Assembly (NCBI GenBank): GCA_944320845.1
Contig: CALUJA010000017.1
Span: forward strand, 1-64,000
Direction of reading: 5' to 3'
DNA length: 64,000 nucleotides
Source of the DNA: an uncultured Phocaeicola sp.
Lineage (GTDB): Bacteria; Bacteroidota; Bacteroidia; Bacteroidales; Bacteroidaceae
Below are positions 432-10,555 of this stretch, piece after piece. Position numbers and translations under genes: made by a program. How positions within the stretch are numbered: the first letter of the stretch is position 1; each line of letters starts with the position of its first letter. Below the pieces are notes generated by a model. That model saw only the letters and a list, made by a program, of their open reading frames with translations. It ran no database searches and was not told the origin of the DNA.

Positions 432-1166
432 TTACTTTATTTTCAATCCCGGAATCAGCGGTGTCGTATCCACCAATTCCAAATCCTTCACCATCTCCAA
501 CGTGCCTTGTTTGTACTTTTGGAAATGAGGGGACTTCAGATGATTCTCGTATGCGGCACGGTCGGCATAGATTTCAAGGATGGTAATCTTGTGAGGCGCA
601 TTCTTTTCGGCTGTGGCATAAAGAGTGAGTACGCCCGGTTCCAACCGCATGGAGGCTTCTATTTCCTCTTTCAGATAGGCGTTGTATTCGTCCAGACGGT
701 TAACATCGACGGTTATCTTCGAGAGGCGTACCAGATTATCTGTGGCCGATACAGTCGGTTTGGCAGTTTCCTGCTTGATGATACGCAATGCCTTAATGGC
801 AGCTGGGAAACCAATGAACGGAGCAGTAAGGTACATCGCTTCCCGCAGTTCCACGGGAGTTACACCCACGTTCAAAACAGCTCCCGCATGGGCTTTCAGT
901 TGCGGAAGCGTCTGCATCGTGGCAAGGGTGACGCAGGTAATCATTTCACGCTGCTTTAAATCCAAGTCTCCCGTAGTAAACACTTCGCCGAAAATAAACT
1001 TCTGAAGAATGTCCATCATTTCTGGGTCCGTACCCTGTCCGGTCAGAACTTCACCGCCGAAAAGGGTACGATAATTGTCCTTGCATGTTTCTATTCTATC
1101 TTCTTGTGCACTTGCAGACACGATTCCTGCCAGCAACAAGGCAAATACAATTATATATAGTTTCAT
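432..1166 (-). CDS. Exported carboxymuconolactone decarboxylase / antibiotic-biosynthesis monooxygenase fusion
   Basis: A 244-residue two-domain protein. Residues 1-20 are a Sec signal peptide (hydrophobic run, SASAQ cleavage site). Residues about 40-125 resemble the carboxymuconolactone decarboxylase fold (REMITCVTLATMQTLPQLKAHA), but without the CxxC pair of the AhpD peroxidase branch. Residues about 140-235 resemble the YgiN-type ABM/quinol monooxygenase fold (LVRLSKITVDVNRLDEYNAYL, then EPGVLTLY and a repeated beta-strand pattern). It is the last gene of a five-gene operon, 16 bases after the flavodoxin-like gene. From context I infer a periplasmic role in oxidising or removing small reactive aromatics or quinones; the substrate is unknown. 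Confidence 0.85.
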   Translation of the reverse strand: MKLYIIVFALLLAGIVSASAQEDRIETCKDNYRTLFGGEVLTGQGTDPEMMDILQKFIFGEVFTTGDLDLKQREMITCVTLATMQTLPQLKAHAGAVLNVGVTPVELREAMYLTAPFIGFPAAIKALRIIKQETAKPTVSATDNLVRLSKITVDVNRLDEYNAYLKEEIEASMRLEPGVLTLYATAEKNAPHKITILEIYADRAAYENHLKSPHFQKYKQGTLEMVKDLELVDTTPLIPGLKIK

Positions 1167-1182: not shown

Positions 1183-1827
1183 TTATATACTTTTTCCTAA
1201 CCGATAGGCTTGTTCACCATAGTGTGTATTACGAACGGAACCGGCCGTCCATACTCCGGATGCGACTACTTCACCCACACTCTCCCAACCAAGATAATCC
1301 ATTAACGCATGGTAGTGCAATAGCATCGGCTCTGCTTCTTTCTTCGCGGTATCGGCGTAGGTCATCAGGAAAGCAGCCTTCTTGTAATGACCTTTTATTT
1401 GCTCGTTGATGGCATAGAAGCGGTCGATAACCCGTTTCATCTGCGCCGAAATACCGAAATAATACATCGGAGTGGCAAATACCACCATGTCAGCGGCTAT
1501 GAGATGAGGACGCAGTTCATTAAAGTCATCCTTTATCACACACAGACCGTCCATGCCGCAACGGTTACATGCGCGGCAAGGTTCCACTTGTTTGAAGGCA
1601 CAATCAAAACGGTAAACTTCATGTCCTTTCTCCTGCGCCCCTTTGACAAACCGTTCTGCCAGATAAGCCGAATTACCGTTTCGACGGGGACTACCGGTCA
1701 ATACAACTATTTCCATTTTCTTTTTTGTTATGTTCATATTTTCTACGGCTCTCACGATGCCGCTTTCCAAGACAATACTCCCTGTAGCCGCAAGCAGGGA
1801 TTTACGAAGAAAATCCCGACGCTTCAT
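1183..1827 (-). CDS. Tat-exported flavodoxin-like NAD(P)H-dependent reductase
   Basis: A 214-residue protein with a twin-arginine signal (MKRRDFLRKS, then a hydrophobic run to about residue 27), followed by a flavodoxin-like NADPH-dependent FMN reductase domain. The FMN phosphate loop is TGSPRRNGNS. The CRACNRCGMDGLC segment is the cysteine-rich stretch typical of iron-sulfur flavoprotein/multimeric flavodoxin relatives, and ATPMYYFGISAQMKRVIDRF is the family's second flavin motif. Its ATG overlaps the stop of the upstream flavin reductase gene by one base (TAATG), so the two are probably coupled. The predicted location is the periplasm, with a folded cofactor carried through Tat. Its electron donor there is not evident. 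Confidence 0.85.
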   Translation of the reverse strand: MKRRDFLRKSLLAATGSIVLESGIVRAVENMNITKKKMEIVVLTGSPRRNGNSAYLAERFVKGAQEKGHEVYRFDCAFKQVEPCRACNRCGMDGLCVIKDDFNELRPHLIAADMVVFATPMYYFGISAQMKRVIDRFYAINEQIKGHYKKAAFLMTYADTAKKEAEPMLLHYHALMDYLGWESVGEVVASGVWTAGSVRNTHYGEQAYRLGKSI

Positions 1828-2387
1828 TAATTCTGTAACCTAAATGTTTTTCCAAGTTTCGTGCATTTGGCAATTTCCCCTCCTGTCCGCAAATAGGTAT
1901 AGTTGGGCATTTCAAAGAGGACAAGCTTCAGCCTGCTGTAATCCGGTTTTCCTTTGTCGTTAAGAATATCTTCCTCAGCATAGGTATTCGTGATTTTGCA
2001 GATGAAGTTGTCGAACGTATCGGTTTCGTAATTGTCAACCACCTCACATTCCATCACCAGCGGACTTGCATCAATGACCGGAGTTCCGGCTTCACCCGGA
2101 TGCCAGGCAAAGACTTTCGATTTGTCCGTCTTCGCTCCGCTGACGCAACCCACATAATCGGCACGTTCCAGCATGTCTACATCTACCATATTGACGGACA
2201 CCTTGCCCGTAGTTTTCACCCCCTGATTGCTATAGTGAGCTTTGTGCATGCTCAACATGATGCGGTCGTGCCCGATGATGCCCACATGGGCAACGAGCAG
2301 CCAGTTTACCTTTCCGTTTACTTCCGTACCCACTACTACTGCGGGGGTGGGATACAATGCCAGAGTCTGGCCGATGTTTTTTTTCAT
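1827..2387 (-). CDS. Flavin reductase / flavoredoxin family protein
   Basis: A 186-residue cytoplasmic protein of the flavin reductase-like FMN-binding split-barrel family: LYPTPAVVVGTEVNGKVNW at the start, a central HYSNQGVKTTGKVSVNMV segment and YVGCVSGAKTDKSK, as in flavoredoxins. There is no signal peptide. It is the third gene of the operon, 27 bases after the amidohydrolase and overlapping the next gene by one base. A role in supplying reduced flavin or transferring electrons to the neighbouring flavodoxin-like protein is an inference from position only. Confidence 0.85.
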   Translation of the reverse strand: MKKNIGQTLALYPTPAVVVGTEVNGKVNWLLVAHVGIIGHDRIMLSMHKAHYSNQGVKTTGKVSVNMVDVDMLERADYVGCVSGAKTDKSKVFAWHPGEAGTPVIDASPLVMECEVVDNYETDTFDNFICKITNTYAEEDILNDKGKPDYSRLKLVLFEMPNYTYLRTGGEIAKCTKLGKTFRLQN

Positions 2388-2414: not shown

Positions 2415-3431
2415 TTATTTGATATTGAACAGCTGGGAAGCATTGCCCCACAGAAACATTTCCGCATATCGGGAAAGCTCTTCGTCTGAGTCAAGCGTTT
2501 CCTTTAGTCTATCCAGATTATTGTGCAATATATTTTCCGACAGATACGGATAATCGGATCCGTAAAGGATATGTTCCGGCGAAGTGATGGTAAGCAAGGC
2601 ACGGATGACTTCCGCCGTAGGATTGCCTGCCAGGTCATAATAGAGTCGCGAAAGGTTCCCCTCCCAGTCGATGGACTGCATGTATCCGCCTGCTGTCATT
2701 GCCGGAAGAATGGATTTCATGCGCGGAATGGCAAGCGGCAGGAACGAACCGCAATGCGGCACGACTACTTTCAGATTCGGATAGCGCACCAGGACATTCC
2801 GTGCCAGCATATTCACGACAGCACGGGTGGTTTCCGCCGGATATTCGTACATTGCCAGCGGTGTGGTCTTGATGATGTTTTCCGGGTAAGGGGCAGGCCG
2901 ATGCGGATGGACGATAATCACAGCATGTCGTTCGTTCAAAACTTCCATCAGCGGGTCAAGTTCCTTGTCTCCCAAATATTGCCCGCGACTGTTAGTTGCC
3001 AACTTGACGCCATCTGCCCCTAATGTATCAAGCGCATAGACGGCTTCACGGATGGCTGCATCTACATCAGGCAAGGGAAGCGAGGCACAGAACTTGAAAT
3101 GTCCCGGATATTTTGCCTTTACTTCCGCCGAAGCCTCATTGATATGGCGGATGCAAGCGACACTCTCCGGCACATCGCCGTAATAAGGCTGCGGGGCAGG
3201 CATGGTCAATACAGCGCAGCCTATTCCTGCACTGTCCATAAAAGCCATGTGCCTTTCCGCATCCCAGTCGGGCAGCGGGAAGGTTTCCTCCAGTCCCGCA
3301 CCGTACCGCTGCAAAAGTCCCTTGTATTCCGGCAGGATGATATGTGTATGCGTGTCTACCGGCTTCTGGGCATGAAGCATGATGCTTGATATCAAGGCTG
3401 CCATACCGATTACGATTCGTTTTATTCTCAT
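2415..3431 (-). CDS. Exported amidohydrolase (ACMSD-like TIM-barrel hydrolase)
   Basis: A 338-residue member of the amidohydrolase-2 family. Residues 1-21 are a signal peptide ending MLHAQ. Metal-binding residues are visible as HTHI near residue 28, a conserved VVPHCGSFLP block near residue 225 and GSDYPY near residue 290, the usual His-x-His, His and Asp ligands. Relatives act as decarboxylases or hydrolases on ring-cleavage products. The gene starts four bases after the stop of the aldo/keto reductase gene, so it is certainly in the same operon. The real substrate cannot be read from sequence. Confidence 0.85.
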   Translation of the reverse strand: MRIKRIVIGMAALISSIMLHAQKPVDTHTHIILPEYKGLLQRYGAGLEETFPLPDWDAERHMAFMDSAGIGCAVLTMPAPQPYYGDVPESVACIRHINEASAEVKAKYPGHFKFCASLPLPDVDAAIREAVYALDTLGADGVKLATNSRGQYLGDKELDPLMEVLNERHAVIIVHPHRPAPYPENIIKTTPLAMYEYPAETTRAVVNMLARNVLVRYPNLKVVVPHCGSFLPLAIPRMKSILPAMTAGGYMQSIDWEGNLSRLYYDLAGNPTAEVIRALLTITSPEHILYGSDYPYLSENILHNNLDRLKETLDSDEELSRYAEMFLWGNASQLFNIK

Positions 3432-3435
3432 AAGA

Positions 3436-4455
<1,020 letters not shown>

Positions 4456-4473: not shown

Positions 4474-4540
4474 CAAAAGTAAGGGGATAGAGTGAAAAAG
4501 GATATAACGCATTTACTGACAAAACAAACCTATTTACTGA
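4474..4540 (-). promoter_or_regulatory. AraC-type tandem operator and promoter (site A)
   Basis: The plus strand carries AACGCATTTACTGA (4506-4519) and AACCTATTTACTGA (4527-4540), direct repeats 21 bp apart. In the transcribed direction the -7 box TACTTTTG occupies 4481-4474, separated from the proximal repeat by exactly 24 bp, and the aldo/keto reductase ATG follows 30 bases later. No good -33 box is present, as expected of an activator-dependent promoter. The same layout recurs at 7105-7171 and 9499-9565. Confidence 0.85.
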
Positions 4541-4558
4541 ATATGCTGAATAATCGAT

Positions 4559-4848
4559 TTAGCGCCCGTTTTCCGTTGGGAGAATGTCCTGATTGTCGCC
4601 GGGAATTTCAAAAACGAAACGGGCAAACAAGCGTCTGGCCGCCTCCGGCCGTAGCATGATAAATATGCCAGTTGTTACGGCAACGGGGGAAAACGCAACA
4701 TTGACAAAAGGCACCTGTTCCTTGCTCAAAACGCGAGGTAACTCTTGCCTGTAGTTCAGTTCTGCAAACTTCGGTACAAATCCTCCCAACCGTACATATC
4801 CGGCGGTTCAGGTAATCCTTTCCTTTGACATACTATATTTCTATCCAT
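4559..4848 (-). other. Probable decayed coding sequence
   Basis: Two short minus-strand open frames overlap here: 4559-4789 (76 codons, beginning like the GGFVPKFAEL segment of some carboxymuconolactone decarboxylases but then unlike them) and a 30-codon frame at 4756-4848. Neither looks like a complete protein, and coding-like stretches change frame, which suggests remnants of a lost gene between operator A and the cyclophilin-like gene. The resemblance is weak. Confidence 0.3.
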
Positions 4849-4863
4849 CGATTAAAGATGAAT

Positions 4864-5319
4864 CTATCGGTTCAATGAAAGCGTGACTGTGACATCCCCT
4901 TTTCCCAATGCTGATTTCAATTGCGCACCGTCGGCATTATCTATCCTGCCTATGCGGGTGAAGTTCCACGAATTGGTTGAATAATAAATCACCAGATATT
5001 TCCCCTGATAAAGAATAATGTCGCCCGGGCCGGTTGATGTCTGGCGGTCATTGCGCGGAAGGTTCGTCCCCAAAGGCCCAACTTTTTCCATGTTGCCATA
5101 GTCCTCCATTTCCACGGTCATATCTCCCTTTGACAATAGCTCTATCAAAGCGTCTGCGGACGAATTGTCTGCTAAAGTAGCGGTAAATGTCTTTCCGTCC
5201 TTGATTGTCAGTCTGATTGAATTTGTTTTCATATCTTTATTATTTTCATTAGATTGTCCGAATATCGGCAACGCTATTAACATGAGAGTCAACAGCGGAA
5301 TGATTCTTGTAATTTTCAT
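4864..5319 (-). CDS. Exported cyclophilin-like fold protein
   Basis: A 151-residue protein. Residues 1-22 are a signal peptide (hydrophobic run ending PIFGQS). Residues about 35-150 match the cyclophilin-like domain widespread in Bacteroidetes and Firmicutes: IRLTIKDGKTFTATLADN, then LPRNDRQTSTGPGDIILYQGKYLVIYY and SWNFTRIGRID. These proteins are often fused to or beside redox enzymes; prolyl isomerase activity is not established. Its ATG overlaps the stop of the upstream acyltransferase fragment (ATGA), suggesting the pair was once coupled. Confidence 0.8.
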   Translation of the reverse strand: MKITRIIPLLTLMLIALPIFGQSNENNKDMKTNSIRLTIKDGKTFTATLADNSSADALIELLSKGDMTVEMEDYGNMEKVGPLGTNLPRNDRQTSTGPGDIILYQGKYLVIYYSTNSWNFTRIGRIDNADGAQLKSALGKGDVTVTLSLNR

Positions 5320-5546
5320 AGAATGGACTTGATAAATTTTGCAGGCACTTCTCCCGCGACCGTGTTGGCCGGAACATCCTTTGTCACTACAGCCCCGACA
5401 CCCAATATTGCATTATCACCAATAGTGAAATCTTGCAGAATAGTGGCATTTGAACCTGCTCCAGACATTTTTATCCAATGTGATGATTTCAGGTGTATCA
5501 AGGGATTCCGTGCTTTTACAATTTCCAAAAATTCATTTAATGTCAT
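5316..5546 (-). pseudogene. Truncated hexapeptide-repeat acetyltransferase
   Basis: 76 codons, of which the last ~50 read as the C-terminal left-handed beta-helix end of a maltose/galactoside O-acetyltransferase (IGDNAILGVGAVVTKDVPANTVAGEVPAKFIKSI). Complete family members are about 180-200 residues, so most of the helix and the catalytic His region are missing. The first ~30 residues do not look like the family's N-terminus. I call it a remnant; it overlaps the cyclophilin-like gene by four bases (ATGA). Confidence 0.65.
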
Positions 5547-5850
5547 ATCAAATTATTTTTTATCCGATAAAAGGATGCGAGCCTTCCGCTCTTTTTCAGT
5601 TTGACTGTTTCTACTGTAATTATTGGCATGAAGTACAGTTCCGTTCCACCGCTTGATATCAGCAGGCGCTTCTATTGCATCTCTTTTACGGACAATTCTC
5701 TTATCTTTGTTATCTTGACAGAAAAATTTTCCGCATAGTGTTCAGACAGAATCTGCCTTCCTTGAGAAAATATTCCTCCGGTACCCCGTATCCGTTGTTT
5801 CACCATTTTCCGCAGCTTGTCTTGGACATCCCGAAAATAGAAAACGGCAA
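5547..5850. other. Gene-poor, probably decayed stretch
   Basis: No intact gene. On the minus strand a coding-like stretch ending ELSVKEMQ at about 5672 seems to continue in another frame as a further ~44 codons ending near 5568, the pattern left by a frameshifted gene. I cannot name the family. Confidence 0.35.
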
Positions 5851-5877
5851 GGATGAGGAACTGCATATTCCTCATCC
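5851..5877 (-). terminator. Hairpin downstream of the Fe-ADH gene
   Basis: A perfect 10-bp inverted repeat (GGATGAGGAA / TTCCTCATCC) with a 7-base loop lies 18 bases past the alcohol dehydrogenase stop. The minus strand continues TTGCCGTTTTC, so the T-run is imperfect, but position and stem strength fit a transcription end. Confidence 0.55.
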
Positions 5878-5895
5878 GTCTGTCATGACTGTTTA

Positions 5896-7077
5896 TTATT
5901 TATAAGATTCCTCATAAACTCGTATAATGTCTTTATCCGACATCTGAACACGGTCGCTGGTGAACATTATGCCCATTACTTCGCGTGTATTACGCATCAG
6001 AGTTTCGAACTCATCGGGAGCAATGCCATAGTCAGACATCTTCAAGTCGGCAACGCCACATGCCTCCTGCAAACGAGTCAGTGCCGTAAGGAAGTCTTCA
6101 GGCTTCGTGGCTTCCGTCATGCCCATAGCCTGTGCCATGCGGATGAAGCGGTCATCGCAGGCATGATGCTCGATGAAGTATTTGTAATAGGCACGGCTCA
6201 CCATAATCAGCCCTGCGCCGTGAGGCAGGTTGGGATGATAAGCCGAAAGGGCATGTTCCAACGCATGTTCGCTGGTGATAAGCGTCAGGCACATCACGCC
6301 GCCAGACAACGTATTGCCGAAAGCTACACGGGTACGAGCTTCAATATCATTGCCGTCCTTAATGGCACGGGGCAGGTATTCGGCAATGTTACGGATGGCT
6401 TCGAGGGCATACATGTCGCTCATCAGGTTGGCACCTTTCGCAATATATCCCTCTGTGCTGTGGAACAGTGCATCAAAACCTTGATAAGCGGTGAATGTGG
6501 CCGGTACACTTTTCATCAGTTCCGCATCGACGATGGAGAGGACGGGGAACAGGGAAGCATCGCCCACGAAAGCTTTTTCAAACGTATCCTCCTTCGTAAT
6601 AACGCCGGAGTTGTCCGTTTCCGAACCTGTACCTGCCGTGGTGGTAATAGCTATGATAGGCAACGGCTTTACGGCAATAGGCTGTCCTTTTCCTGAACCG
6701 ATGGGCACGTAATCCCACAGTTCACCTTCATTCGTAGCCATGACCGCAATGGCTTTGGCACAGTCCATGACACTGCCTCCACCCAACGCAACGAGAAAGT
6801 CACATTCGTTGTCACGGGCTGCCTTTGCACCGGCATTAACATTGCCCACTGTGGGATTGGGAGCGACACCATCGAAAATGCAAGTCTCCACACCGGCCTT
6901 ATGCAACTGCTCTTCCGTGCGGGCAAGATAGCCATTGGCACGGGTCGATTTACCGTTGGAAATGATGATGAGGGCACGTTTGCCCGGCATGGATTGTTCA
7001 CTCAGCTTATTCAGCATTCCTGCGCCGAACATCACACGGGTAGGAATGTACATGTCGTAGTTGTTGTTAGTTTCCAT
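5896..7077 (-). CDS. Iron-containing alcohol dehydrogenase (YqhD/butanol dehydrogenase-like)
   Basis: A 393-residue group III metal-dependent alcohol dehydrogenase. The N-terminal Rossmann part has VALGGGSVMDCAKAIA and ITTTAGTGSETDNSGVI for NAD(P) binding. Metal ligands fall in QGFDALFHSTEGY and the block EHALEHALSAYHPNLPHGAGL (Asp and His residues of the Fe/Zn site). YqhD-type enzymes scavenge short toxic aldehydes with NADPH. The gene is a separate transcription unit behind operator site B, and a hairpin follows it. E. coli pairs yqhD with an aldo/keto reductase under the AraC regulator YqhC, a close parallel to this locus. Confidence 0.92.
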   Translation of the reverse strand: METNNNYDMYIPTRVMFGAGMLNKLSEQSMPGKRALIIISNGKSTRANGYLARTEEQLHKAGVETCIFDGVAPNPTVGNVNAGAKAARDNECDFLVALGGGSVMDCAKAIAVMATNEGELWDYVPIGSGKGQPIAVKPLPIIAITTTAGTGSETDNSGVITKEDTFEKAFVGDASLFPVLSIVDAELMKSVPATFTAYQGFDALFHSTEGYIAKGANLMSDMYALEAIRNIAEYLPRAIKDGNDIEARTRVAFGNTLSGGVMCLTLITSEHALEHALSAYHPNLPHGAGLIMVSRAYYKYFIEHHACDDRFIRMAQAMGMTEATKPEDFLTALTRLQEACGVADLKMSDYGIAPDEFETLMRNTREVMGIMFTSDRVQMSDKDIIRVYEESYK

Positions 7078-7104
7078 TTTGTAAGTTATTTAATGATTCT
7101 GATG

Positions 7105-7171
7105 CAAAGGTAGCAGACTGCCGCCGGAAAGGGGATAACGTATTTACTGACGATTGTAACCGATTTACGGA
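7105..7171 (-). promoter_or_regulatory. AraC-type tandem operator and promoter (site B)
   Basis: Direct repeats AACGTATTTACTGA (7137-7150) and AACCGATTTACGGA (7158-7171), 21 bp apart, precede the -7 box TACCTTTG (7112-7105) with a 24-bp gap; the Fe-ADH ATG is 27 bases further. The distal repeat ends immediately beside the stop codon of the next upstream gene, so the regulator site fills the whole intergenic space. Confidence 0.85.
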
Positions 7172-8458
7172 TTATTTCCCCATTGTTTCCTTTACTTTCG
7201 CCAATAAACTGGGGATATCCAGATGCTGTGGGCACTTTGCCAGGCATTCTCCACACCCGATGCATGATGAAGCCGGGTCGCCACGCTGGACAGGGGACAT
7301 GGATACGGTGTAGTCTGCCATTGCCCGCCCTTTGTTACGGTGCAGAAGATAGTTGTTGTAGACATAGGCAAAGATGTAGCCGACGGCTACATTCTGCGGA
7401 CAAGGAATACACTGGTAACATCCGGTACAGTCTATGTGTCCCGGTGCATGGCGGTAAGCGTAGACGGCTGCTCCCAATGCCTCGCGCTCGGCCGGTGTGA
7501 GCATATTCGGCTTTGCCTTTGCCGCATATTTCAGGTTTTCCTCCACATCTTCCATGGATCCCATGCCGCTGACGGCAACGCTTACTTCGGGAATGTCCCA
7601 CAAGTAATCCAATGCCCACTCCGCATCCGGCTTCCGAATGCCGGTAGAAGCAAGGGCTTCCTTCATGCTTTGCGGCAAGTTGGCAAGGAAGCCGGTACGA
7701 ACAGGCTTCATCACCGCCACCCCCATACCGTTGGCTGCCGCATATTTCGGCCCGAGCACACCGGCCTCATACTCATAATCAAGGTAATTGTGCTGTATGA
7801 GACAGAAATCCCACGCCGGTGTATATTCAACCACCCGTTTGAACAGTTGCAGGCTGTCGTGGAAAGAGAATCCCATAAAGCGTATTTTCCCTTGCGCCTT
7901 CAGCTTTTCCATTTGCTCGATAAGTTTGTACGGCAACACATAGTCTTTCCATGCCCGGTGCATAATCATGTGGATATGATAAAAATCTATTATGTCGGTA
8001 TCAATGGCCCGTCTTGACCGGTCGAAAAATTTTTCGAAATCGTCCGCACTTTCCATCTCCCACCACGGCATCTTGGAGGTGACATAAACCCGGTCGCGCC
8101 AGCCACCGGCAAGTGCTTTTCCGACGGCCTGCTCGCTTTCGCCTCCCATATAGACACGCCCGGTATCTATGTAGTTCACTCCGCCTTCGATGGCGCGGCG
8201 CACCATCGGGGTCGTATGATCAAAATCCACATGCCCGTTCCTCATCGGCAGGCGCAACATGCCAAAACCTAATGCCGATACGTTTACTCCCGTTCTGCCC
8301 ATCGGACGGTATTGCATAGCCGGGTTATAATTCAGGATATCCCTTGCATTCTCCTGTCCCGCACGCTTGTTTGCTTCCCGGGCAATGGCATCCGGTCCCA
8401 TTGCGGCACCGACAGCCGCGGCGAATAACCCGCTCTTGATGAAATTTCTTCTGTCCAT
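7172..8458 (-). CDS. Tat-exported aldo/keto reductase with C-terminal 4Fe-4S domain
   Basis: 428 residues. A twin-arginine signal (MDRRNFIKSG, hydrophobic to about residue 26) precedes an aldo/keto reductase barrel (GRTGVNVSALGFGMLRLP, catalytic region NYIDTGRVYMGGESEQAVGKAL, FYHIHMI). The last ~85 residues carry two ferredoxin-like cysteine groups, CTGCYQCIPCP and CIGCGECLAKCPQ. This architecture is known in predicted oxidoreductases of Bacteroidetes and clostridia. It follows the DUF6282 gene by 18 bases under operator site C. The usual Tyr of aldo/keto reductases is present; the clusters suggest an electron partner other than NADPH, unusual for a periplasmic member. Confidence 0.9.
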   Translation of the reverse strand: MDRRNFIKSGLFAAAVGAAMGPDAIAREANKRAGQENARDILNYNPAMQYRPMGRTGVNVSALGFGMLRLPMRNGHVDFDHTTPMVRRAIEGGVNYIDTGRVYMGGESEQAVGKALAGGWRDRVYVTSKMPWWEMESADDFEKFFDRSRRAIDTDIIDFYHIHMIMHRAWKDYVLPYKLIEQMEKLKAQGKIRFMGFSFHDSLQLFKRVVEYTPAWDFCLIQHNYLDYEYEAGVLGPKYAAANGMGVAVMKPVRTGFLANLPQSMKEALASTGIRKPDAEWALDYLWDIPEVSVAVSGMGSMEDVEENLKYAAKAKPNMLTPAEREALGAAVYAYRHAPGHIDCTGCYQCIPCPQNVAVGYIFAYVYNNYLLHRNKGRAMADYTVSMSPVQRGDPASSCIGCGECLAKCPQHLDIPSLLAKVKETMGK

Positions 8459-8476
8459 AACTTTTTAACGAAAGAA

Positions 8477-9484
8477 TTAATGATGAGTCAGTCCTATCAG
8501 CCACGCCGGGTTATGGCGTACCAGTAAGTCAATGTCGCTTTGAGGGATGCCTTCTGCCTGCAATTTCAGGATGCAATCCCTCATGCCCTCGACGGGATGC
8601 AACATCACCGCCTGCCCCAAGTCGGTGGAAATGAAACTCCGTGACGGGTCAATGCGGACAAAGCCGGCAAATTCTCCGATGCTTTGCCGTGGATATTGCG
8701 GCATCTTCGTGCCTTCTCCCCACAAGCAGGGCAGATAGCAATATTCGATGTATGCGCCAAGGTCGATGCACTGCTTAATCTGGTCGGCAGTCATTTTCCA
8801 GAAATGGGAATTGGCATGGGTAACGACAAATTTGTTCACACCTATTTCCTTTGCCTTACGGGCAAGCGTGATGCTTTCCTGCGGCGAAGCGTGCCCGGTA
8901 GCAAAGATGATGCCGGCTTCCGCACAGATTTCCATTACGCGGACGACTTCGGGCAACACCTGTCCGCTATCATCCAGCACGGGGATTCCTTTTTCTTCCC
9001 TTCCTTCACATTGGTAATGATAGGCTGCATCGAGTGTCGGCATCCAGATACAACGGCACAGTCCTCCGCTTGTTTCGACAGCCTTTTGTGCAGCAAACGG
9101 ATTTACCTTATCCCCATGCACACGATTCATGCAGAAACTGCCGAAACATTCCGCTTCCGGCAGTACCTGCCGGATGATATATGCCCTGTCGTGGCAGCTG
9201 AAGTCATTGGATTTGAACATCACGGCACGGTATCCGGCATGCATCGCATCCTGCATGAAACCGTATTCATCTACCGAGCGTTCCCGCGAATCGGGGCGGC
9301 AATGCAGGTGGATGTCGCATACTCCTTTTAATAAGCCGTCATTTGTAAACACCGCATTCTTGCTTTTCTCCGAAAGAAAGTTCATGGCGCGGGCAGGTAT
9401 CGTCGCCTGCGCAAGCAATGCCCCTCCTGTCAGCACGGAACTCTTGATAAAGTCCCGGCGGTTTATTCTTCCATTATCATCCAT
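8477..9484 (-). CDS. Tat-exported DUF6282 metal-dependent hydrolase-like protein
   Basis: 336 residues from the chosen ATG at 9484, preceded by AGAAGCG. An upstream in-frame ATG at 9535 lies beyond the -7 box of site C and cannot be in the message. The twin-arginine signal is NRRDFIKSS followed by a hydrophobic run. The mature part resembles PHP/amidohydrolase barrels of the DUF6282 family: CDIHLHCRPDS, FATGHASPQESI, VTHANSHFWKM and FISTDLGQ offer His and Asp metal ligands. It is first in a two-gene unit with the 4Fe-4S aldo/keto reductase. Function is not established. Confidence 0.8.
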   Translation of the reverse strand: MDDNGRINRRDFIKSSVLTGGALLAQATIPARAMNFLSEKSKNAVFTNDGLLKGVCDIHLHCRPDSRERSVDEYGFMQDAMHAGYRAVMFKSNDFSCHDRAYIIRQVLPEAECFGSFCMNRVHGDKVNPFAAQKAVETSGGLCRCIWMPTLDAAYHYQCEGREEKGIPVLDDSGQVLPEVVRVMEICAEAGIIFATGHASPQESITLARKAKEIGVNKFVVTHANSHFWKMTADQIKQCIDLGAYIEYCYLPCLWGEGTKMPQYPRQSIGEFAGFVRIDPSRSFISTDLGQAVMLHPVEGMRDCILKLQAEGIPQSDIDLLVRHNPAWLIGLTHH

Positions 9485-9498
9485 CGCTTCTTTTTTCA

Positions 9499-9565
9499 CA
9501 AAAGTAGTTGGTAGCCGGTCTAAAGGATATAACATATTTACGGAGATTTGTAACCCATTTACGGA
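9499..9565 (-). promoter_or_regulatory. AraC-type tandem operator and promoter (site C)
   Basis: Direct repeats AACATATTTACGGA (9531-9544) and AACCCATTTACGGA (9552-9565), 21 bp apart, with a 24-bp gap to the -7 box TACTTTTG (9506-9499). The DUF6282 ATG is 14 bases beyond. The site lies in the divergent region shared with the araC-family gene, about 40 bp upstream of that gene's own -7 box. Confidence 0.85.
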
Positions 9566-9604: not shown

Positions 9605-9612
9605 TATTTTTG
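9605..9612 (+). promoter_or_regulatory. -7 box of the araC-family gene
   Basis: TATTTTTG matches TAnnTTTG exactly and lies 25 bases before the ATG at 9638. No clear -33 box is visible. Confidence 0.6.
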
Positions 9613-9637: not shown

Positions 9638-10555
9638 ATGAAAACAGATTTGACAAATTTGATAAAAATGAATACGGTGGATGAATACAACAAACTGTTC
9701 GGATTGGAAACGCTCCATCCGTTGGTGAATGTCATCGACCTTTCAGATGCTACCCGATTCCCTACGCATTTTGCAATCAATTATGGCATTTATGCCCTGT
9801 TCCTGAAAGAGACCAAATGTGGCGACATACGCTATGGCCGACAAATATATGACTACAAAGAAGGCACAATTACCAGCTTTGCGCCGGGACAGGTATCGGA
9901 AACGGAAATGTTGGACGGCATGAAGCCTACGGCACGCGGCATCGTGTTCCATCCTGACCTGATTAAAGGCACATCGCTCGGGCAGGAAATCAAGTCATAT
10001 TCCTTCTTTTCCTATAATTCCACCGAAGCCTTGCATCTTTCTGCTGAAGAGAAAAGCATCGTCCTTGACTGCCTGGCGAAAATTAAGATAGAGCTGACGC
10101 ATCCGATTGACAAGCTGAGCAAGCGGTTGATTGCAAGAAATATCCAGTTGCTGCTTAATTATTGCATGCGCTTCTATAACCGGCAATTTGTCACCCGTGA
10201 AAAATCGAACAAGGATGTGCTGACCCGGTTCGAAGCCTTGCTTAACGATTATTTCCAAAGTGGAAAGTCGCGTACCAACGGGCTGCCCACCGTAAGGTAT
10301 TTTGCTGACAAGGTATTTCTTTCATCCAACTACTTTGGAGACCTTGTTAAAAAGGAAACGGGAAAGAATCCGCAAGAATATATCCAAGGCAAAATCATAG
10401 ATACGGCTAAAGACATGCTTGCCGATACGGGAATGACCGTAAACCAGATAGCCGACGAATTGGGATTTCAATATACCCAACATTTCAACCGTATGTTCAA
10501 GAAGGTAGCAGGCCATACGCCAAGTGAATTCAGGAAATTGCTGGCAACAGGATGA
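9638..10555 (+). CDS. AraC-family transcriptional regulator of the redox regulon
   Basis: 305 residues. Residues about 1-190 form a cupin-like sensing domain (GIYALFLKETKCGDIRYGRQ). Residues about 205-303 carry the two AraC helix-turn-helix units: VRYFADKVFLSSNYFGDLVKKETGKNPQEY, then MTVNQIADELGFQYTQHFNRMFKKVAGHTPSEFR. It is transcribed away from the DUF6282/aldo-keto reductase unit. The three tandem operators nearby match the two-site, two-helical-turn layout expected for this family, so I infer that it activates all three units. The parallel in E. coli is YqhC with yqhD and dkgA. The inducer is unknown; reactive aldehydes or quinones are the first guess. Confidence 0.92.
   Translation: MKTDLTNLIKMNTVDEYNKLFGLETLHPLVNVIDLSDATRFPTHFAINYGIYALFLKETKCGDIRYGRQIYDYKEGTITSFAPGQVSETEMLDGMKPTARGIVFHPDLIKGTSLGQEIKSYSFFSYNSTEALHLSAEEKSIVLDCLAKIKIELTHPIDKLSKRLIARNIQLLLNYCMRFYNRQFVTREKSNKDVLTRFEALLNDYFQSGKSRTNGLPTVRYFADKVFLSSNYFGDLVKKETGKNPQEYIQGKIIDTAKDMLADTGMTVNQIADELGFQYTQHFNRMFKKVAGHTPSEFRKLLATG

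Follow-up and report, generated by a model that had tools for sequence, protein, structure and literature searches.

Which genes does an AraC-type regulator of a gut bacterium control, and how far can this be read from its DNA? For gut Bacteroidota, to our knowledge, only a small number of AraC proteins have been connected with their target genes. The question is raised by a stretch of 64,000 nucleotides from an uncultured Phocaeicola sp. (assembly GCA_944320845.1, contig CALUJA010000017.1, positions 1-64,000, forward strand), hereafter called the window, in which three promoters carry the same pair of direct repeats, one of them next to the gene of an AraC-family regulator at 9638-10555 (Table 1). 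In our assessment, the pairs are quite probably the operator of this AraC protein, which would activate three transcription units and probably its own gene as well. New here is the observation that the operator is also placed exactly 38 or 39 bp from the -7 box of the regulator's own gene, in 54 of 61 loci.

Operator geometry in the window and beside related araC genes

The six half-sites in the window match AACNNATTTACKGA with zero mismatches, 11 of the 14 positions being invariant among them, and on the gene strand each operator has the layout TCMGTAAATNNGTT-n7-TCMGTAAATNNGTT-n24-TAnnTTTG. With up to two mismatches permitted, the 14-mer occurs 20 times in the window compared to 9.55 expected matches, and none of 100 shuffles reached 20. 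The original prediction, made from the letters of the window, had described six 14-mers arranged in pairs 21 bp apart, the 24 bp to TAnnTTTG and the 11 invariant positions, and every one of these details was borne out; it missed the conserved distance of operator 3 to the promoter of araC itself. It had furthermore regarded the three promoters as a local regulon and proposed a genome scan. In the source genome (2,802,503 bases in 36 contigs, 99.59% complete), the exact pair was found at three places, all of them in the window, with 0 control matches. The three-promoter set hence stands as the sole exact pairs of the 2.8-Mb genome. Strict locality does not stand, because the relaxed form TCNGTAA-n14-TCNGTAA-n31-TANNTTTG gave nine exact sites and one with a single mismatch (none added at two mismatches, one control match), and some of these 10 places apparently belong to paralogous AraC proteins. 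The idea of a strictly private three-promoter regulon was dropped, since the grammar is common to all 10. At up to three mismatches, the exact pair gains one extra place, position 101607 of contig C8, which has the same 21/24 spacing and precedes the gene of a hexapeptide-repeat protein, an acetyltransferase by its look.

The spacing recurs when the motif is ignored. A search for any two 14-mers alike at 11 or more positions and lying 24 bp from TAnnTTTG, done in 1.6 Mb of loci of which some are near-duplicates, returned 14 matches at period 21, with 0-2 for every remaining period between 15 and 30. Exact TC.GTAA pairs were counted in the window and in loci L035-L126, where 48 occurred at spacing 21 and 0-2 at the other spacings from 14 to 35, except for 6 at spacing 30; with one mismatch, 106 pairs at spacing 21 compare with 9-37 at other spacings.

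The same pair was then sought upstream of related araC genes. One scan of named genomes supplied the relatives, of which the best 80 of 104 were used (50-91% identity to the window AraC); they come from genera ranging from Phocaeicola, Bacteroides and Parabacteroides to Flavobacterium, Arcicella, Flectobacillus, Draconibacterium and Salegentibacter. Together with the window this makes 81 genes, and 80 upstream regions of at most 300 bp remained after L081 had been dropped, which has too little upstream sequence. Pairs were scored by matches to the 12 core positions of two TC.GTAA half-sites, with at least 11 of 12 as the main cut. On the divergent strand, 61 of the 80 regions, from Bacteroidales to Flavobacterium, hold such a pair at 21 bp, with 50 distinct operator sequences among the 61. 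No pair of this quality was found on the araC sense strand (0/80; 4/94 at the cut of at least 10/12), and other periods from 15 to 31 gave 0-4 regions, except for 24 at period 28. An origin of the pairs by chance was rejected on the grounds of all three spacing controls.

Both flanking promoters stand at a conserved distance from these operators. The first divergent NAnnTTTG box lies 24 bp away in 52 of the 61 loci and 23 bp away in 6, and is absent in 3, while a TAnnTTTG box on the araC strand follows the other operator edge at 38 bp (39 loci) or 39 bp (15 loci), compared to at most 2 in 200 shuffles. The operator of the paralogue at C6:11687 has no divergent -7 box at 24 bp but has the regulator-side box at 38 bp. 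Loci L189-L194 had been picked partly because the site is present. Loci L195-L200, in contrast, were picked for an AraC gene without a pattern match there (genome overlap with the 80 relatives is possible), and their pairs score 9-12, where three of the six score only 9 and at least 9 is also reached by 9 of 80 sense strands; the araC-side TAnnTTTG box at 38/39 bp was found in five of six and the divergent box at 23/24 bp in four of six. One operator placed for both promoters makes conserved autoregulation a likely reading; a single operator would be geared to the divergent and the araC promoter, and AraC probably controls its own synthesis.

The sites also go along with the regulator across genomes. 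When up to one mismatch is allowed, sites turn up in 24 of 60 related genomes, counting the source genome, and controls match 4 times overall. A close AraC is encoded in 34 of the 60, of which 23 have a site, compared to 1 of the 26 genomes that lack it (Fisher p 2e-7); the E-value cut of 1e-50 for a close AraC was fixed after the lists had been inspected. In a sample of the phylum, a looser pattern (one mismatch, NAnnTTTG) matched 25 of 148 genomes, and exact matches beyond the source genome occurred in four (G070, G108, G135 and G181), in all of which a relative of the regulator is encoded no more than about 1.4 kb away. Found next to so many related araC genes, the operator layout looks like a real and widely used gene switch of Bacteroidota.

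Operator subtypes and their regulators

Identity among operators correlated with identity among AraC proteins, with r 0.86 for 63 loci (0 of 500 permutations reached this value), r 0.55 for the 18 loci of Bacteroidales and of the source genome (0 of 2000) and r 0.65 for the 45 other loci (0 of 500). The permutation outcomes were alike with or without the core positions. Moreover, in 17 loci compared with the window, the proximal GTAAAT is kept in 5 of 5 that have an AraC of at least 83% identity and differs in 11 of 12 below this value, with L043 as exception. Among the 364 triples formed from 14 operators of the source genome, the window triple is the most alike over 20 variable columns (0.75); a first comparison had used 12 operators, with those near the C6 and C33 paralogues omitted, and was repeated with all 14. 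With 10 places of the relaxed form in the source genome, the window sites are one subtype of a family operator, which the fourth site on contig C8 resembles. As regards the other sites, those on C7, C4 and C3 have as their closest counterpart the operator belonging to the paralogue at C6:11687; for the reductase site on C5 it is the reductase site on C33. The assignment of the repeats to an AraC protein, as claimed originally, is strengthened by the geometry-only search, by the 61 of 80 AraC genes and by the subtype kept among the closest orthologues, but it was framed too narrowly.

One or several paralogues encoded in the source genome might instead be the main binders of the three sites, or share them with AraC 9638-10555, which would make the regulon a shared network and not a private one; this appears rather unlikely. 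The source genome has five further AraC relatives (42-73% identity) besides the 10 places with the relaxed grammar, and the C8 site is intermediate between the operator subtypes. Nevertheless, the window sites form the most alike triple, their proximal core is kept with the closest AraC proteins and differs in nearly all others, and one window site directly adjoins araC 9638-10555.

Beyond the window, we lean slightly towards a single operator grammar in a large paralogue family of Bacteroidota AraC proteins (TCnGTAA twice at 21 bp, 24 bp to the target -7 box and 38/39 bp to the own -7 box), whose subtypes would have diverged within genomes and given rise to parallel electrophile-stress regulons readable from sequence. 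With such a compact rule for the operator and its conserved distances to two promoters, regulators and targets could be paired by sequence alone in many genomes, and the pairing of operator subtypes with paralogues would be a natural data set on how AraC proteins choose their DNA.

Two arrangements of paralogues were seen in passing. On contig C33 of genome G000 (L116), two convergent araC paralogues, with about 230 bp between them, lie by an aldo/keto reductase gene whose operator stands at 25 bp instead of 24. On contig C5 of the same genome, a gene of 193 amino acids (L117:8115-8696) resembles only the N-terminal, putative sensor half of AraC (38% over residues 4-182); it has its own operator, is divergent to a full araC paralogue and possibly encodes a regulator without DNA-binding part.

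Proposed activation and target genes

The sites, their geometry and conservation and their tie to this regulator clade are shown above; what follows on binding, on activation instead of repression, on self-control and on the inducer is our inference. Two AraC monomers would sit head to tail on half-sites spaced by 21 bp or two helical turns, the proximal one beside the -33 region, and would activate the unit of DUF6282 and the ferredoxin-type reductase, the unit of the iron-containing alcohol dehydrogenase and the aldo/keto reductase operon, while operator 3, at the conserved 39 bp from the -7 box of araC, would serve the self-control of the regulator. AraC proteins of class II usually bind as head-to-tail monomers at this distance beside the -33 region, and the half-sites of the window have the matching layout, with 21 bp in 3/3 sites and 24 bp to the -7 box. 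The signal may, as for E. coli YqhC, be a reactive aldehyde, ketone or quinone, because the enzymes resemble those that reduce carbonyls and quinones. The best reading is a class-II-like AraC activator of an aldehyde/quinone-reductase regulon, which would be YqhC-like in its working and is not a YqhC orthologue.

Alternatively, AraC could bind and repress one or both of the divergent promoters, with an inducer relieving the repression, which we judge improbable. The conserved operator distance to both promoters would agree with it, and in araC-like divergent systems the regulator limits its own synthesis also. However, the proximal half-site lies beside and not over the -7 box, the usual place of a class II activator, and the first letter of the divergent box, T in 13 of 13 Bacteroidales loci, is G in 44 of 45 other loci, which would suit a weak promoter that needs help. 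That the repeats are copies of one duplicated promoter without regulatory meaning can practically be dismissed and was rejected, since the sites do lie within about 5 kb on one strand but their flanks (80 bases on either side) agree at only 17-27 of 80 positions, about the level of chance, so that they are not recent copies (the stretch between operator and -7 box agrees at 10-13 of 24), and the same geometry is found at other genes and in other genera.

What would the activator switch on? A scan of 26 proteins after sites of the source genome, of G030 (12/12 sites) and of G017 (6/8 sites) gave 5 aldo/keto reductases, 2 iron-type alcohol dehydrogenases, 4 proteins of the carboxymuconolactone decarboxylase-like (CMD) type, 3 DUF3737, 2 hexapeptide-repeat proteins and 2 TonB receptors, one each of flavodoxin, cyclophilin-like, RibD_C, DUF362 and EamA, and 3 for which the applied cut-offs left no match. 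Outside Bacteroidales, the closest divergent frame encodes a homologue of the reductase 3436-4443 in 33 of 49 loci. Among homologues of the putative target genes, a pair of at least 10/12 within 260 bp was found for DUF6282 in 4/4, iron-containing alcohol dehydrogenase in 4/8, aldo/keto reductase in 31/67, flavin reductase in 2/6, cyclophilin-like protein in 1/7, the C7 CMD protein in 1/4 and the C8 acetyltransferase in 4/8 (one being the C8 gene itself), where this cut is loose, seeing that many of these regions also score 10 or 11 at the best of seven other periods. The genes of 5 ferredoxin-type reductases, 6 CMD-ABM proteins, 5 FMN reductases and 1 amidohydrolase have no such pair within 260 bp; these genes may be internal to operons. 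The target enzymes suggest how gut and environmental Bacteroidota cope with reactive aldehydes or quinones.

Several observations weigh against the window pairs being the operator of AraC 9638-10555. Its paralogues could bind the window sites too, and operators 2 and 3 with the C8 site form the second most alike triple (0.73 vs 0.75). The correlation of operators with regulators is partly due to descent, and some loci are near-duplicates. In the motif-free search, period 21 with gaps other than 24 gave 1-12 matches, with 12 at gap 23, and the 24 upstream regions at period 28 perhaps come from an internal half-repeat. Furthermore, a pair of at least 11/12 is missing upstream of 19 of 80 AraC genes, and sites are missing from 11 of the 34 genomes that encode a close AraC. 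In the phylum sample, the link is weaker (a match in 13 of the 35 genomes that have the AraC, compared to 12 of the 113 that lack it), and the 30 matches outside the source genome compare with 17 control matches, several resembling coding sequence. Finally, the site 1 pair was found within 260 bp upstream of 0/5 reductase homologues of at least 79% identity. In L035, L036 and L119, the reductase gene follows the cyclophilin-like gene after about 5 bases, assuming equal protein length, and seems to belong to the unit of operator 2; in the window, the two genes are 420 bp apart, and the intervening stretch holds a separate operator. By comparison with these loci, site 1 is a local feature.

Table 1. 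Operators, -7 boxes and genes of the window discussed in the text.
Feature	Position	Strand	Details
Operator 1	4506..4540	-	half-sites 4506-4519 and 4527-4540
-7 box TACTTTTG of aldo/keto reductase operon	4474..4481	-	24 bp from operator 1
Operator 2	7137..7171	-	half-sites 7137-7150 and 7158-7171; also in L035, L036, L119
-7 box TACCTTTG of iron-containing alcohol dehydrogenase unit	7105..7112	-	24 bp from operator 2
Operator 3	9531..9565	-	half-sites 9531-9544 and 9552-9565; between DUF6282 gene and araC
-7 box TACTTTTG of DUF6282 unit	9499..9506	-	24 bp from operator 3
Likely -7 box of the araC gene, TATTTTTG	9605..9612	+	39 bp from operator 3 edge
AraC-family regulator, 305 amino acids	9638..10555	+	HTH_18 2.5e-22, HTH_AraC 4.1e-12; relatives up to 91%
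DUF6282 gene	8477..9484	-	Pfam 1.2e-59; likely start ATG 9484
Aldo/keto reductase with 4Fe-4S domain	7172..8458	-	second gene of DUF6282 unit (inferred operon)
Iron-containing alcohol dehydrogenase	5896..7077	-	Pfam 5e-50
Cyclophilin-like protein	4864..5319	-	Pfam 4.3e-26
Aldo/keto reductase	3436..4443	-	Pfam 1.7e-73
Amidohydrolase (Amidohydro_2)	2415..3431	-	domain match
Flavin reductase-like protein	1827..2387	-	domain match
NADPH-dependent FMN reductase / flavodoxin fold	1183..1827	-	domain match
CMD-like protein with ABM domain	432..1166	-	domain match

The regulator has the C-terminal double helix-turn-helix (HTH_18 at residues 223-300), and its N-terminal part, which in the AraC/XylS family would be a ligand-binding or dimerisation domain, gave no Pfam match at 0.001. 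In the protein alignment, which covers 33 of the 81 proteins, Cys61 is a cysteine in 32 of 33 and is a candidate sensing residue. For the reductase 3436-4443, the best NCBIfam model is a methylglyoxal reductase, far below its cut-off (152 vs 550 bits). A mechanical choice of start opens the DUF6282 frame (8477-9535) at ATG 9535; this codon falls inside operator 3, so that ATG 9484 is the likely start and the better fit to the promoter. Between the genes of the alcohol dehydrogenase and the cyclophilin-like protein, a short frame (5323-5545, minus strand) resembles the C-terminal remnant of a hexapeptide acetyltransferase. Genes of the hexapeptide type also lie downstream of this operator at C8, L043, L052 and L187.

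Comparison with known systems

No description of this operator or regulon was found in the openly licensed PMC literature, which is no proof that none exists. The class II AraC sites araI1-I2 are head-to-tail half-sites 21 bp apart by a promoter, with a divergent regulator gene. The window system shares the half-sites at 21 bp, the divergent regulator and the probable autoregulation, and differs in its operator sequence, in the -7 box of Bacteroidota type and in having one operator at a conserved distance from both promoters. A further AraC-type protein is RhaR of Bacteroides; according to PMC3870299, rhamnose regulators of this genus and of other groups have direct-repeat motifs with 21-bp periodicity. 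Family and repeats are thus alike, but the regulon of RhaR is sugar catabolism.

The closest parallel in function is E. coli YqhC, which according to PMC5297802 and PMC8262776 is an AraC-family activator of yqhD and dkgA, with yqhD activated by glyoxal and furfural; its gene, as described there, is divergent from the operon of iron-type alcohol dehydrogenase and aldo/keto reductase. An AraC-family regulator with these two types of enzymes as putative targets is found here as well, the alcohol dehydrogenase of the window being 29% identical to YqhD and the aldo/keto reductase 26% identical to DkgA. Orthology of the regulators was rejected, as BLASTP aligns 80 of 305 residues at 28%, in the helix-turn-helix part only. 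In the yqhC-yqhD intergenic region of E. coli K-12 (L170:3220-3355), the best direct repeat among periods 19-23 has period 21 (10/14, given without chance comparison) and is a possible YqhC operator. The operator sequence of the window differs from it, the best TC.GTAA pair in the E. coli region scoring 7/12. In contrast to YqhC, the window system adds DUF6282, CMD, flavodoxin and acetyltransferase proteins to the likely targets, and several paralogues share its operator grammar.

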